64,000 nt of DNA from Tateyamaria omphalii (lineage in GTDB: Bacteria; Pseudomonadota; Alphaproteobacteria; Rhodobacterales; Rhodobacteraceae), in assembly GCF_001969365.1 (NCBI RefSeq), contig NZ_CP019312.1, positions 992,001 through 1,056,000 on the forward strand, read 5' to 3'. The position numbers were made by a program, and so were the translations under genes. A model generated the notes under the pieces. That model ran no database searches and was not told the origin of the DNA. It was given only the letters and a program-made list of their open reading frames with translations. Within the stretch, counting starts at the first letter, position 1; the number at the start of each line of letters is the position of its first letter. This document shows positions 27,307 to 61,679 of this stretch, in pieces.

Positions 27307-27321
27307 TTAACAAGTGGTTAA
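27307..27321. promoter_or_regulatory. CtrA-type box TTAA-N7-TTAA
   Basis: TTAA (27307-27310) and TTAA (27318-27321) are exactly seven bases apart, the consensus of the cell-cycle and motility regulator CtrA. It lies 46 bp before the start of the glycosyltransferase gene (minus strand) and downstream of carA, so the glycosyltransferase is the likely target. Confidence 0.6.
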
Positions 27322-58410: not shown

Positions 58411-59576
58411 TGTGGCGATCCATCGCCTCGAATGCGCTGACATTTTTGATTGTGGCCCTGTTTGTGCTGGGCGGTTTGATCCTGTGGGGACGCGGCCAGT
58501 ACGAGGGGCCGGGTCCGCTGAGCGAGGCCATTTGCGTGCAGGTGGATCGCGGGTCGAATTTCAGCCGCGTGAGCCGTGATCTGGAAGAGCAGGGCGCCGT
58601 TGAGTATGGCTGGATCTTTCGCACGGGCGCGGACTATTCCGGCAAGTCGGGCGATTTGAAGGCGGGCAGCTTTCTGGTCGAACCGGGGGCGTCCATGGAA
58701 GAGATTGTGGATGTCGTGACCCGGGGCGGGGCCAGCACCTGCGGGACGGAAGTGGTGTACCGGATCGGTGTGAACAGGCTGAGCGCGCAGGTGCGGGAGT
58801 TGGACCCTGCCACCAACCGTTTTGTGGAACGGGCGGAGTTTGAGCCGGGTGAGGAAGATGCGCCCGCTGTTTACACTGAGGTGCGCGCCGCGGCGGACAC
58901 CCGTTACCGCATTGCTTTTGCAGAAGGGGTGACAAGCTGGCAGGTTGTGGACGCGCTGCGCAACATGGATGTGCTGGACGGGGAGGTGGACGATGTACCG
59001 CCCGAGGGTGCTCTGGCACCCGACAGCTATGAAGTGCGCAGTGGTGACAGCCGGGCGGATGTACTGGCGCAGATGGCCGAACAGCAGGAGTTGTGGGTGT
59101 CTGCGGCATGGGAGGCGCGCGATGCGGACCTGCCGCTGGAAAGCCCGGAGGAGTTGCTGACCCTGGCGTCGATCATCGAGAAGGAGACCGGTGTGGCCGA
59201 GGAGCGGGGGCAGGTGGCGTCCGTCTTTGTGAACCGGTTGAACCGGGGGATGCGCCTGCAGACCGACCCGACGGTGATCTATGGCATCACCCGTGGGCAG
59301 GGCGTGCTTGGGCGCGGTTTGCGCCGATCGGAGCTGCGGGCGGCGACACCCTGGAACACCTATGTCATTCTGGGGCTGCCGCCGACGCCCATTGCCAACC
59401 CCGGTCGCGCCAGCCTGATGGCGGCGGCGCAGCCCGATGAGACGCCTTATGTGTTCTTTGTCGCGGATGGGACGGGCGGGCACGCGTTTGCCGAGACGCT
59501 GGATGAGCACAACCGGAACGTGGCGCGGTGGCGTGAGATTGAGGCAGAGCGGGCCAATCAGAATGATGGTGGGTGA
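58410..59576 (+). CDS. mltG: Endolytic murein transglycosylase MltG
   Basis: A 388-residue protein with one N-terminal membrane helix (about 9-29), a LysM-like first domain, and the YceG catalytic domain with the essential Glu in LASIIEKETG near residue 257, then FVNRLNRGMRLQTDPTVIYG and LPPTPIANPG. It cleaves nascent glycan strands in the periplasm and may set their length. The ATG overlaps the fabF stop. It is the last gene before the GTA cluster. Confidence 0.94.
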   Translation: MWRSIASNALTFLIVALFVLGGLILWGRGQYEGPGPLSEAICVQVDRGSNFSRVSRDLEEQGAVEYGWIFRTGADYSGKSGDLKAGSFLVEPGASMEEIVDVVTRGGASTCGTEVVYRIGVNRLSAQVRELDPATNRFVERAEFEPGEEDAPAVYTEVRAAADTRYRIAFAEGVTSWQVVDALRNMDVLDGEVDDVPPEGALAPDSYEVRSGDSRADVLAQMAEQQELWVSAAWEARDADLPLESPEELLTLASIIEKETGVAEERGQVASVFVNRLNRGMRLQTDPTVIYGITRGQGVLGRGLRRSELRAATPWNTYVILGLPPTPIANPGRASLMAAAQPDETPYVFFVADGTGGHAFAETLDEHNRNVARWREIEAERANQNDGG

Positions 59577-59585
59577 CGTGCCTGC

Positions 59586-59606
59586 GGTGCGCAGTGAATG
59601 CGCACC
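59586..59606. repeat. Hairpin GGTGCGCA-GTGAA-TGCGCACC
   Basis: Perfect 8-bp stem with a 5-base loop ten bases after the mltG stop; it may act as a terminator or RNA stabiliser, although no T-tract follows. Confidence 0.5.
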
Positions 59607-59647
59607 CTACGGGCCTCGTGTGAGGCGGAGGTGACCTTTACCCGTTT

Positions 59648-59661
59648 GTCCCCGCGGGGAC
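59648..59661. repeat. Palindrome GTCCCCGCGGGGAC
   Basis: Third perfect copy of this 14-bp palindrome, between mltG and the GTA regulatory region. Confidence 0.6.
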
Positions 59662-59703
59662 ACGCAAGGGTTGTTTTGCGTTCTCAACGGGTTACGGCCT
59701 CCG

Positions 59704-59718
59704 TTAACCACATCTTAA
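59704..59718. promoter_or_regulatory. CtrA-type box TTAA-N7-TTAA upstream of the GTA cluster
   Basis: TTAA at 59704-59707 and TTAA at 59715-59718 are separated by exactly seven bases, and both half-sites are followed by C, a perfect match to the CtrA consensus. It lies 65 bp before the -35 element of the GTA promoter. CtrA is known to be needed for GTA expression in Rhodobacter, usually thought to be indirect. Confidence 0.7.
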
Positions 59719-59745
59719 CCATGCAATTAGGGTTTTGTTAATCGT

Positions 59746-59755
59746 ACCGTACGGT
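59746..59755. promoter_or_regulatory. Candidate operator palindrome ACCGTACGGT
   Basis: Perfect 10-bp palindrome between the CtrA-type box and the -35 element, in a region that is otherwise AT-rich. It could bind a dimeric regulator such as the GTA activator GafA, but that is conjecture. Confidence 0.4.
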
Positions 59756-59783
59756 TAGCGTCCATAGCTCATCCGGATTTCGC

Positions 59784-59812
59784 TTGACTCTGCGAACGGT
59801 CACACGTATAAC
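59784..59812 (+). promoter_or_regulatory. Likely GTA cluster promoter
   Basis: TTGACT (59784-59789) and TATAAC (59807-59812) are 17 bases apart, close to the sigma70 consensus. Transcription would start near 59819, about 100 bp before the first GTA gene. Confidence 0.65.
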
Positions 59813-59840
59813 TTGTGTCAAGCTAGAAGAAGTGGGCAAG

Positions 59841-59870
59841 CGACCTCGGGGTGACCCGGTGGTCGTTTTT
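59841..59870 (+). terminator. Leader terminator with GTGA tetraloop
   Basis: Outer stem CGACC (59841-59845) with GGTCG (59861-59865) and inner stem CGGG (59847-59850) with CCCG (59855-59858) enclose a GTGA loop of the stable GNRA class; five T residues follow at 59866-59870. It sits between the likely promoter and the first GTA gene, so it would stop transcripts after about 50 bases unless read through. Confidence 0.7.
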
Positions 59871-59919
59871 CTGTTTCTCTCGTGCGGAAAACATTCCAAC
59901 GCATGAGAGGTCATATCAC

Positions 59920-60264
59920 ATGACATTGATTACCCCGGAGGCTGAAGAGGCCCGCAGCGAGGAGCTTGTCTCTTCGATGCAGGCGTCGCTCGCAGAATTG
60001 CGGCGGACCATTCAAGCCCTCAAAGAAAGGGCGAATGCCGGGGAGGAATTCAAGGAAACCGAGGTGAACGGTCAGCTGACATCCTTGTCCAAGCTGGTCG
60101 TTGCCCTTCAAGGAGCGGAGCAGAAACTTGACAAGTTTCGAGAAAGCCGAAGTGGCATTGCCCAAAACGGATATGCCTTCGACCTTAACATTGCCAGCGC
60201 TCAGGTTCGGTGCGCGCTTGGTCGCCTCCGCACCTGTGGAGGCACAGGAACGGTTTCTGAATGA
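59920..60264 (+). CDS. GTA small terminase subunit (TerS, RcGTA g1-type)
   Basis: A 114-residue, mostly helical protein (EELVSSMQASLAELRRTIQ, then LTSLSKLVVALQGAEQKLDK) in the place of RcGTA g1, directly before the large terminase gene. g1 of Rhodobacter capsulatus has been identified as the small terminase. The coiled-coil character fits an oligomerising TerS, and no DNA-binding HTH is visible, as expected for GTAs that package without sequence preference. The ATG at 59920 follows GAGAGG. Its 3' part overlaps the large terminase gene. Confidence 0.75.
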   Translation: MTLITPEAEEARSEELVSSMQASLAELRRTIQALKERANAGEEFKETEVNGQLTSLSKLVVALQGAEQKLDKFRESRSGIAQNGYAFDLNIASAQVRCALGRLRTCGGTGTVSE

Positions 60265-61546
60265 GTTGGAAGTGGAGGGCGCCCTGGGTGCCCTCCCCTT
60301 TTTATTCGAGTTCTGGGCCATGGAGCACCAGCTGCCACCGGAGGGGGATTGGCGGACCTGGGTGATCATGGGCGGGCGCGGTGCAGGCAAGACCCGTGCG
60401 GGTGCCGAATGGGTACGGTCCATGGTCGAGGGCGACATGCCGCTGGACAAGGGACAGGCCCGGCGCGTTGCGCTGGTGGGCGAGACCATCGAGCAGGTCC
60501 GCGAAGTGATGGTGTTTGGTGACAGCGGCTTGCTGGCCTGTAGCCCGTCGGACCGTCGACCGAAATATCACGTCGGGCGCAAGATGCTGGAATGGCCCAA
60601 TGGCGCCATTGCCACCATTCACACGGCGCATGACCCTGAAGGGCTGCGGGGGCCACAGTTTGATTGTGCCTGGGTGGACGAGCTGGCCAAGTGGAAGCGG
60701 GGCGCCGAGACCTGGGACATGCTGCAATTTGCGTTGCGGCTGGGCGACGATCCGCGCTGTTGCGTGACGACGACGCCCCGCAACGTAGAGGTTTTGAAGG
60801 AGTTGCTGGCGCAATCGTCGACCGTGATGACCCATGCGACGACCGAGGCCAACGCTGCCAACCTGGCCGATGGGTTTTTGAAAGAGGTGCGTCGCCGCTA
60901 TGCCGGGACCCGTCTGGGACGGCAGGAATTGGAAGGCGTGTTGCTGAGCGACGTCGAGGGGGCGTTTTGGACCACGGCGATGCTGGATGCGGTGCGCCGC
61001 AAGCGCAAGCCGAAGTTGGACCGTGTGGTGGTGGGGCTGGATCCCGCGGTGAGTGCCGGCCGCTCCTCTGACGCCTGTGGCATCATCGTCGCAGGGGTGT
61101 CGATGGACGGCCCGCCGCAGGATTGGCGCGCCCATGTTATTGCGGATTGCACGGTGCAGGGGGTGGGGCCCAATGGTTGGGCCAGGGCGGCGATAGCGGC
61201 GATGGACAAGTACAACGCGGATCGGCTGGTGGCCGAGGTGAACCAGGGCGGGCAGCTGGTCAGTGAGGTGATCCGACAGGTCGATCCGATGGTGTCGTTG
61301 AAGACGGTCCATGCCTCCAAGGGGAAGGTCGCGCGGGCGGAGCCTGTCGCGGCATTGTATGAACAGAACCGGGTGACGCATGGTTTGAACCTTGGGCCGC
61401 TTGAGGATCAGATGACCCGAATGACGCGGGCCGGATATGAGGGGCAGGGATCGCCCGATCGGGTGGATGCGCTGGTTTGGGCCCTGCATGAGTTGATGAT
61501 CGAGCCTGCCAATGCCTATCGCAGGCCGGGGGTGCGCAGTTTGTGA
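60173..61546 (+). CDS. GTA large terminase (RcGTA g2-type)
   Basis: About 457 residues. It has the packaging ATPase with Walker A GGRGAGKT (67-74), Walker B CAWVDELAKW and CCVTTTPRN, then a RNase H-like nuclease beginning VVVGLDPAVSAGRSSDA and ending GSPDRVDALVWAL. It drives DNA into the GTA head. The ATG at 60173 overlaps TerS by about 90 bp; a TTG at 60101 is in frame too. The homologous region begins near residue 15, so the exact start is open. Confidence 0.93.
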   Translation: MPSTLTLPALRFGARLVASAPVEAQERFLNELEVEGALGALPFLFEFWAMEHQLPPEGDWRTWVIMGGRGAGKTRAGAEWVRSMVEGDMPLDKGQARRVALVGETIEQVREVMVFGDSGLLACSPSDRRPKYHVGRKMLEWPNGAIATIHTAHDPEGLRGPQFDCAWVDELAKWKRGAETWDMLQFALRLGDDPRCCVTTTPRNVEVLKELLAQSSTVMTHATTEANAANLADGFLKEVRRRYAGTRLGRQELEGVLLSDVEGAFWTTAMLDAVRRKRKPKLDRVVVGLDPAVSAGRSSDACGIIVAGVSMDGPPQDWRAHVIADCTVQGVGPNGWARAAIAAMDKYNADRLVAEVNQGGQLVSEVIRQVDPMVSLKTVHASKGKVARAEPVAALYEQNRVTHGLNLGPLEDQMTRMTRAGYEGQGSPDRVDALVWALHELMIEPANAYRRPGVRSL

Positions 61547-61602
61547 GCGGCCCTGCGGGGCGAGTTTAGAGTGCCAAGTGAAGATGTGATCTTGGCCTGA
61601 TG

Positions 61603-61629
61603 AGGCGGCTCGGTGCGGGCCGCCTTTTT
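61603..61629 (+). terminator. Intrinsic terminator between large terminase and portal genes
   Basis: AGGCGGC (61603-61609) pairs with GCCGCCT (61619-61625) around a 9-base loop and T residues follow to 61629. It sits inside what should be a single GTA operon, just before a strong AAGGAG site for the portal gene. Confidence 0.7.
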
Positions 61630-61679
61630 CTTTGGACGGCGGGCCGGGCGGCCCCTTTGGGATCAAAAGGAGACCCTTC

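Follow-up and report, generated by a model that had tools for sequence, protein, structure and literature searches.

A conserved promoter–terminator unit ahead of the gene transfer agent cluster of Tateyamaria omphalii: a probable GafA-dependent antitermination module

In Tateyamaria omphalii, a gene transfer agent (GTA) cluster of the RcGTA type lies directly behind a control region at positions 59704-59871 of the window (the whole stretch of 64,000 nucleotides analyzed here), as read from the sequence and its open reading frames (ORFs). Comparison with related loci indicates that the promoter, the first ~25 transcribed bases and an intrinsic terminator of this region are one conserved unit. 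On the basis of this conservation and of its likeness to published systems, we consider the unit to be probably the late promoter of the GTA, built in the manner of a phage Q-type antitermination module with GafA as the factor. The features referred to below are as follows.

59704..59718, no strand: distal CtrA-type box TTAACCACATCTTAA, an exact TTAA-N7-TTAA, 80 bp before the -35
59727..59741, no strand: proximal CtrA-like site TTAGGGTTTTGTTAA, 8 bp downstream of the distal box and the one of the pair that is conserved
59746..59755, no strand: palindrome ACCGTACGGT, with CGTACGGT inside it at 59748-59755; putative GafA site on the upstream side
59784..59789, plus strand: -35 hexamer TTGACT
59793..59800, plus strand: CGAACGGT, within the spacer between -35 and -10; by analogy with the GafZ, AlpA and Q elements, a proposed loading element
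59807..59812, plus strand: -10 hexamer TATAAC at spacing 17
59813..59837, plus strand: conserved initial transcribed sequence TTGTGTCAAGCTAGAAGAAGTGGGC
59838..59871, plus strand: leader intrinsic terminator with GTGA loop and T-tract (from the sequence, scans and a covariance model)
59876..59910, plus strand: second hairpin, formed by 59876-59886 with 59900-59910; GAGAGG, the ribosome-binding site of g1, lies in the 3' arm
59920..60264, plus strand: g1 of the GTA, going by its position; probably encodes the small terminase
60143..61546, plus strand: g2, terminase large subunit (Pfam Terminase_6N and 6C; start codon unsettled)
61602..61631, plus strand: second terminator, in the g2-g3 gap (from the terminator scan; hairpin 61602-61626)

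The control region and the genes behind it

A sequence-only reading of the window had described a CtrA-type box followed in order by a palindrome, a promoter and a terminator, and direct reading of the sequence found all four where that description had placed them, including the 17-bp spacing of the promoter hexamers (59784-59812) and the GTGA loop of the terminator (59841-59870). The distance to the first gene had been given as within 170 bp. This figure has to be corrected: the most likely start codon of g1 is ATG 59920, so that the described stretch opens ~220 bp ahead of it. No Pfam family matched g1. The g1-g2 order, with a terminase and a conserved cluster behind it, is that of an RcGTA-type element, the genes after g2 being known as ORFs alone. 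Among the best 80 of at least 593 g2 loci, the nearest seven g2 proteins were those of Tateyamaria (89-91% identity), and g2 was found in 236/244 genomes of the order Rhodobacterales. On the upstream side, the control region adjoins genes that we take, from their sequences, to be fabF-like and mltG-like.

TTGACT-N17-TATAAC (59784-59812) was the only match without mismatches to the promoter pattern in the window, where two matches were found at up to two mismatches against 0.64 expected; a generic promoter scan missed it owing to the final C of the -10. RNA synthesis would start near 59818-59820, and the initial GCTAGAAG is part of the early transcribed region behind the -10. Counted from this putative start to the leader terminator, the default RNA is predicted to be ~52 nt long. 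The hairpin of the terminator reads CGACC-T-CGGG-GTGA-CCCG-GT-GGTCG, followed by TTTTT (59841-59870), and places a predicted stop for RNA polymerase between the promoter and the first gene, as in Q-type modules. The folding energy of the window's leader was -43.1 kcal/mol (z -4.05). A generic terminator scan of the window alone found six terminators against 3.8 +/- 2.1 in shuffles, which is not significant, and the case for the terminator therefore stands on its conservation.

Conservation and spread of the promoter–terminator unit

Two sets of loci were compared with the window. The named set consisted of 80 loci with g2 (the best 80 of at least 593), of which L076 was too short, leaving 79 usable; the genus set held one region for each of 70 genera, taken from the best-scoring g2 rows, with distant genera under-sampled. 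R. capsulatus was absent by name from the loci examined. Entry into an alignment (A1) followed a strict rule (TTGA[CT] and TA, spacing 17 being tried first), which was passed by 52/70 genus regions, five of them doubtful, and failed by 18/70. The TA was at spacing 17 in all 52, and the TTGA[CT] and TA columns of A1 are conserved by selection of the entries, because the rule demanded both. L102, L123, L125, L146 and L153 were dropped from A1 as doubtful, and L143 was re-anchored. With the sequences anchored on the -35, mean information per column was 0.79 bits in the spacer and 0.72 bits in the first transcribed bases, vs 0.08-0.14 bits upstream, where the values are lowered because the upstream columns of the profile were not realigned.

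A covariance model spanning the -35 to the T-tract (R1) was in place in 77/79 usable named Rhodobacterales loci. The sequence-only reading had proposed an alignment of related Roseobacter GTA clusters as a check, and the hairpin is kept in most of the loci examined. The two loci without R1 in place were L071, with no match, and L073, where the match was to another hairpin; L062 had a weak match of 25 bits. R1 scored at least 32 bits in 52/70 genus regions, 47 of which were its training set. When whole genomes of the order were searched, 193/244 gave a match at E<=0.01 and 51/244 did not, and E was below 1e-9 in 153 of the 243 genomes bearing a DUF6456 protein (72/99 genera). The T. omphalii genome had a single strong match (97.7 bits), the next (14.2 bits) being antisense at the same place. 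In a class-wide scan of 289 genomes, matches outside the family were weak, none exceeding 27.6 bits among the matches listed (33/289, five of these rows being from this family); the ten weak out-of-family matches (23.7-27.6 bits) are taken as chance terminators. The distance from the start of the element to the g2 reference point was 345-379 bp in 19 of 20 hand-picked genomes and 433 bp in the remaining one. R1 thus provides a sequence signature that marks the GTA late promoter in the 193 genomes matched.

The terminator was also recovered independently of the model. It was found within 100 nt behind the -10 in 74/79 sequences (the window and 78 named loci), vs 12/237 dinucleotide-shuffled copies and 2/79 windows placed in the upstream gene. 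By scan, 76/79 named loci had a hairpin with a T-run in the leader, and L015, L071 and L073 had none; in L015 the hairpin is visible by eye with the T-run displaced, and the scan match of L019 is doubtful. In a structure-blind alignment of 48 leaders (the window and 47 genera), 87.2% of the stem cells paired, vs 79.8% after shuffling and 35-62% for slid structures, and 8/12 pairs showed compensatory changes, being altered on both sides. Stem covariation was 0.306 vs 0.183 +/- 0.012, a value reached by 0/500 shuffles, and relatedness alone can exceed such a control. These statistics were counted on a structure named by hand, after RNAalifold on a MAFFT alignment had returned 5 pairs only (-0.63 kcal/mol), probably because the variable apical part was misaligned. 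The aligned leaders indicate that the stem is a selected structure.

The unit was also met next to altered GTA clusters. In L172 (G002), L173 (G027) and L176 (G007), where g2 was weak, its reading stops near residue 181 and continues, at about residue 651, into the long tail-gene frame known from the T. omphalii cluster; the promoter–terminator unit is intact. The sequences indicate that one and the same internal deletion has removed part of the GTA cluster in these three genera, and no long exact repeat in the T. omphalii genome explains the junction. Four further loci, L170 (G142), L171 (G020), L174 (G138) and L175 (G163), had no g2 match and kept the unit (44.7-87.3 bits); L171 and L174 carry pieces of the long tail gene behind it, and nothing GTA-like was found within 2.5 kb behind the unit in L170 and L175. 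Free phages carrying the module were considered as well. In IMG/VR, a search for the exact pattern returned 21 contigs (L178-L198). Each of them has the unit and, directly downstream, a GTA-like g2; they are most likely GTA clusters called viral, and the idea was dropped.

GafA and the probable antitermination module

The motif CGNACGGT occurs twice in the control region, at 59748-59755 within the palindrome and at 59793-59800 within the promoter spacer, 45 bp apart, and both positions were enriched across genera. With up to one mismatch, it was present at the fixed spacer position in 39/52 sequences (0.6% in shuffles) and upstream in 22/52 (3% in shuffles). The conserved spacer copy, a putative factor site, would be the promoter-internal element of a Q-type module. 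The complete palindrome was found once in the window (shuffle mean, 0.02) and in three exact copies in the genome. The other two copies, one between convergent genes and one among tad-like pilus genes (L083 1822-1831, C1:2149821), are away from GTA promoters; the palindrome alone is therefore no mark of such promoters, and its use as a regulon mark was abandoned.

The genome encodes one DUF6456 protein (DUF6456 at residues 248-385, HTH at 42-78), which by its architecture is GafA, so that the factor expected of a GafA-controlled operon has its gene here. The presence of gafA is useless as a discriminating test, as 243/244 genomes of the order were positive for DUF6456; among 14 control genomes, it was detected in Caulobacter only. 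Genomes with a strong element had higher GafA profile scores than the others (median -log10 E, 60.5 vs 52.8; Mann-Whitney p 2e-25), and element strength followed the GafA score within genera (rho 0.41, 116 genomes), with agreement in 7/9 mixed genera and the opposite trend in two. The correlation is partly phylogenetic, which counts against its weight as evidence for antitermination. Since 51/244 genomes had no R1 match and 243/244 had DUF6456, either GafA can work without the terminator or those clusters are decaying.

In phage lambda, the late genes likewise lie behind a promoter and a leader terminator (tR') and give a short default RNA; lambda differs in having a longer leader, a different element, an unrelated protein and a sigma-dependent pause. 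The Q element of lambda is located in the promoter spacer (PMC11150451, PMC7969949). Another such system is GafY/GafZ of Caulobacter crescentus, which shares with the present locus a GTA main cluster, a DUF6456 factor, an element confined to the main promoter, where it sits between the -35 and the -10, and a terminator early in the cluster (PMC11150451). GafZ, homologous to the C-terminal part of GafA, causes antitermination past this terminator, which follows the first GTA gene, and mutation of a palindrome in the spacer abolishes both GafZ enrichment and GTA production (PMC11150451). The sequence-only reading was unaware of any leader terminator that serves as a control point; a precedent exists in GafZ, which acts past an early GTA terminator, and leader read-through is closer to a known kind of control than that reading assumed. 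The Caulobacter arrangement differs in that its terminator lies after the first gene, with 150-bp repeats, whereas that of T. omphalii is compact and precedes the first gene; in that a consensus -35 is lacking there, whereas TTGAC is present here; and in that GafY and GafZ are two proteins with IHF involved, whereas GafA is one (PMC11150451). AlpA of Pseudomonas aeruginosa also combines a -35/-10 spacer element with an intrinsic terminator between the promoter and the first gene, alpB, but the protein is apparently unrelated, and loss of omega hardly matters for AlpA (PMC7969949), whereas GafA is reported to need omega (PMC9638019). To judge by its title, a study of the Bartonella GTA (Korotaev et al. 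2025, cited in PMC13236601) also treats antitermination as a GTA control step.

For R. capsulatus, the cluster is of the same type, and GafA binds a single probe 76-125 bp before g1, over the -10 and the start (PMC6363796); the putative start of T. omphalii is ~101 bp before g1. No terminator is mentioned in PMC6363796, PMC9638019 or PMC6854486. No leader terminator at an RcGTA-type promoter was found in the literature covered, outside which lies early RcGTA promoter work in subscription journals. An unrecognized antitermination by GafA in Rhodobacter has been suggested as a possibility (Tran & Le 2024, PMC11150451). The present comparison adds the cis element itself, the parts that compose it and the genomes in which it occurs; with a conserved terminator right behind the promoter, the suggestion becomes testable.

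From these comparisons, we propose the following mechanism. RNA polymerase would start near 59819 and stop by default at the leader terminator, and this stop would bar stray transcription, whether from the GTA promoter itself or from the upstream gene, from the GTA genes. GafA would bind CGNACGGT upstream and in the spacer and join the polymerase at initiation, or else early in elongation, while the conserved initial transcribed sequence is being copied. So modified, the polymerase would pass the leader terminator, and in this clade also the second one after g2. The terminator would suggest a reason for the silence of the GTA in most cells, as polymerase without GafA would stop after ~52 nt. 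The occurrence of the unit in 77/79 named loci, the spacer motif, the second terminator, the presence of a GafA-type gene, the relation of element strength to GafA score and the GafZ and AlpA precedents (PMC11150451, PMC7969949) all argue for this mechanism. Against it stand the published role of GafA as an activator of initiation working via the omega subunit (PMC9638019), the 18/70 genus regions that fail the strict rule and the 51/244 genomes without a match. The regulated read-through postulated by the sequence-only reading is well supported, at the level of comparison, by the conservation of the parts and by a layout like that of antitermination promoters already published.

The second terminator, in the g2-g3 gap, differs in sequence among the 13 nearest relatives (L001-L013), yet it was present in all 13. 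A scan of 59 of the 80 named loci, at permissive settings and with no shuffle control, found it in 33/59; it was missing from six of seven Ruegeria, L064 having one. The second part of the picture is missing in 20/70 genus regions and in all but 33/59 loci, which speaks against antitermination. The same permissive scan is unspecific by itself, giving 19 candidates on the plus strand and 8 on the minus strand over the 17 kb of the T. omphalii cluster. The next clean terminator after the g2-g3 gap lies behind a presumably cysE-like gene, at the operon end. These data bear on an alternative in which the leader hairpin is a passive insulator that blocks stray transcription, GafA acts on initiation and polymerase leaks through. 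The activity of GafA via omega (PMC9638019) and the genera without a terminator are in its favor. However, a terminator behind the promoter, at near-fixed distance and after a conserved initial sequence, would cost the GTA most of its own transcript, and in this clade a second terminator follows; we therefore regard passive insulation as unlikely.

The sequence-only reading left the choice between attenuation and antitermination open, and protein-mediated antitermination fits better. Under RNA-based attenuation, a leader RNA with a ligand, a ribosome or a small RNA would toggle between terminator and antiterminator. The leader is conserved as RNA too, and in 23/50 sequences the initial sequence can form at least 5 pairs with the 5' stem arm, but these alternative folds are weak (median -5.1 kcal/mol, vs -6.1 in shuffled sequences and about -25 for the full leader), and an RNA switch is disfavored. 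A leader peptide was rejected: the would-be ATG is ATG in 25/48 sequences and otherwise AAG, ACG or AGG. An Rfam search of 59550-60300 matched no family and returned only a chance microRNA match (60122-60141) below threshold. RNA-based attenuation is thus highly improbable, and antitermination by GafA is retained as the preferred reading.

A second hairpin follows the leader terminator. Its stem was found in 60/77 named sequences (5.8 expected; L062, L071, L073 and L076 left out) and 27/50 genus sequences (4.7 expected; L123 and L125 left out), with arm pairs that vary as GTGCG/CGCAT, GTACG/CGTAT and GTGTG/CACAT. As its 3' arm holds the ribosome-binding site, this hairpin may occlude translation of g1. 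L073 (Shimia thalassica) has no promoter–terminator unit at ~2550-2850 and has apparently kept the second hairpin, so that one RNA feature may be lost without the other.

CtrA-type sites upstream of the promoter

The promoter carries CtrA-type sites, as would a member of the CtrA regulon, and gafA of the same genome has a TTAA-N7-GTAA site upstream. Exact TTAA-N7-TTAA boxes occurred twice in the 64 kb (mean of 0.07 in dinucleotide shuffles), and the 200 bp before the -35 held exact boxes in 18/79 sequences vs 0.05 expected. With up to one mismatch, the box was found in 35/76 sequences (3.4 expected) and 26/51 genera (2.1 expected), about tenfold over shuffles, and 28 such sites in the 76 sequences gather at 55-58 bp before the -35. 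The box singled out by the sequence-only reading is the distal one, whose offset, at up to one mismatch, is common to 10/76 sequences. Its proposal of direct CtrA input therefore holds better for the neighboring proximal site than for the box itself, and it is weakened by work in R. capsulatus, where gel-shift assays gave no binding of CtrA at the RcGTA promoter, the gafA promoter being bound instead (PMC6363796).

Direct CtrA input is plausible in this clade from the enrichment and the common offset of the sites. That CtrA directly controls initiation, alone or beside GafA, is compatible with antitermination; we consider it possible but lean against it. Besides the gel-shift result, roughly one sequence in two lacks such a site, the site lies ~85 bp upstream of the putative start, and other proteins with AT-rich sites may be the binders. 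More speculatively, the region could be a three-layer lock derived from a phage late promoter and wired to the host, in which CtrA (cell state) and GafA (commitment) act at one promoter, GafA then travels with polymerase past one or two terminators as an omega-dependent antiterminator, and the long transcript has yet to unfold the second hairpin over the g1 ribosome-binding site, with the conserved ~52-nt RNA as a counterpart, perhaps functional, of the lambda leader; we hold this combined scheme to be rather doubtful.

The other exact TTAA-N7-TTAA of the window (27307-27321) lies between two minus-strand reading frames, which we judge by eye to be glycosyltransferase-like and carbamoyl-phosphate-synthase-like.
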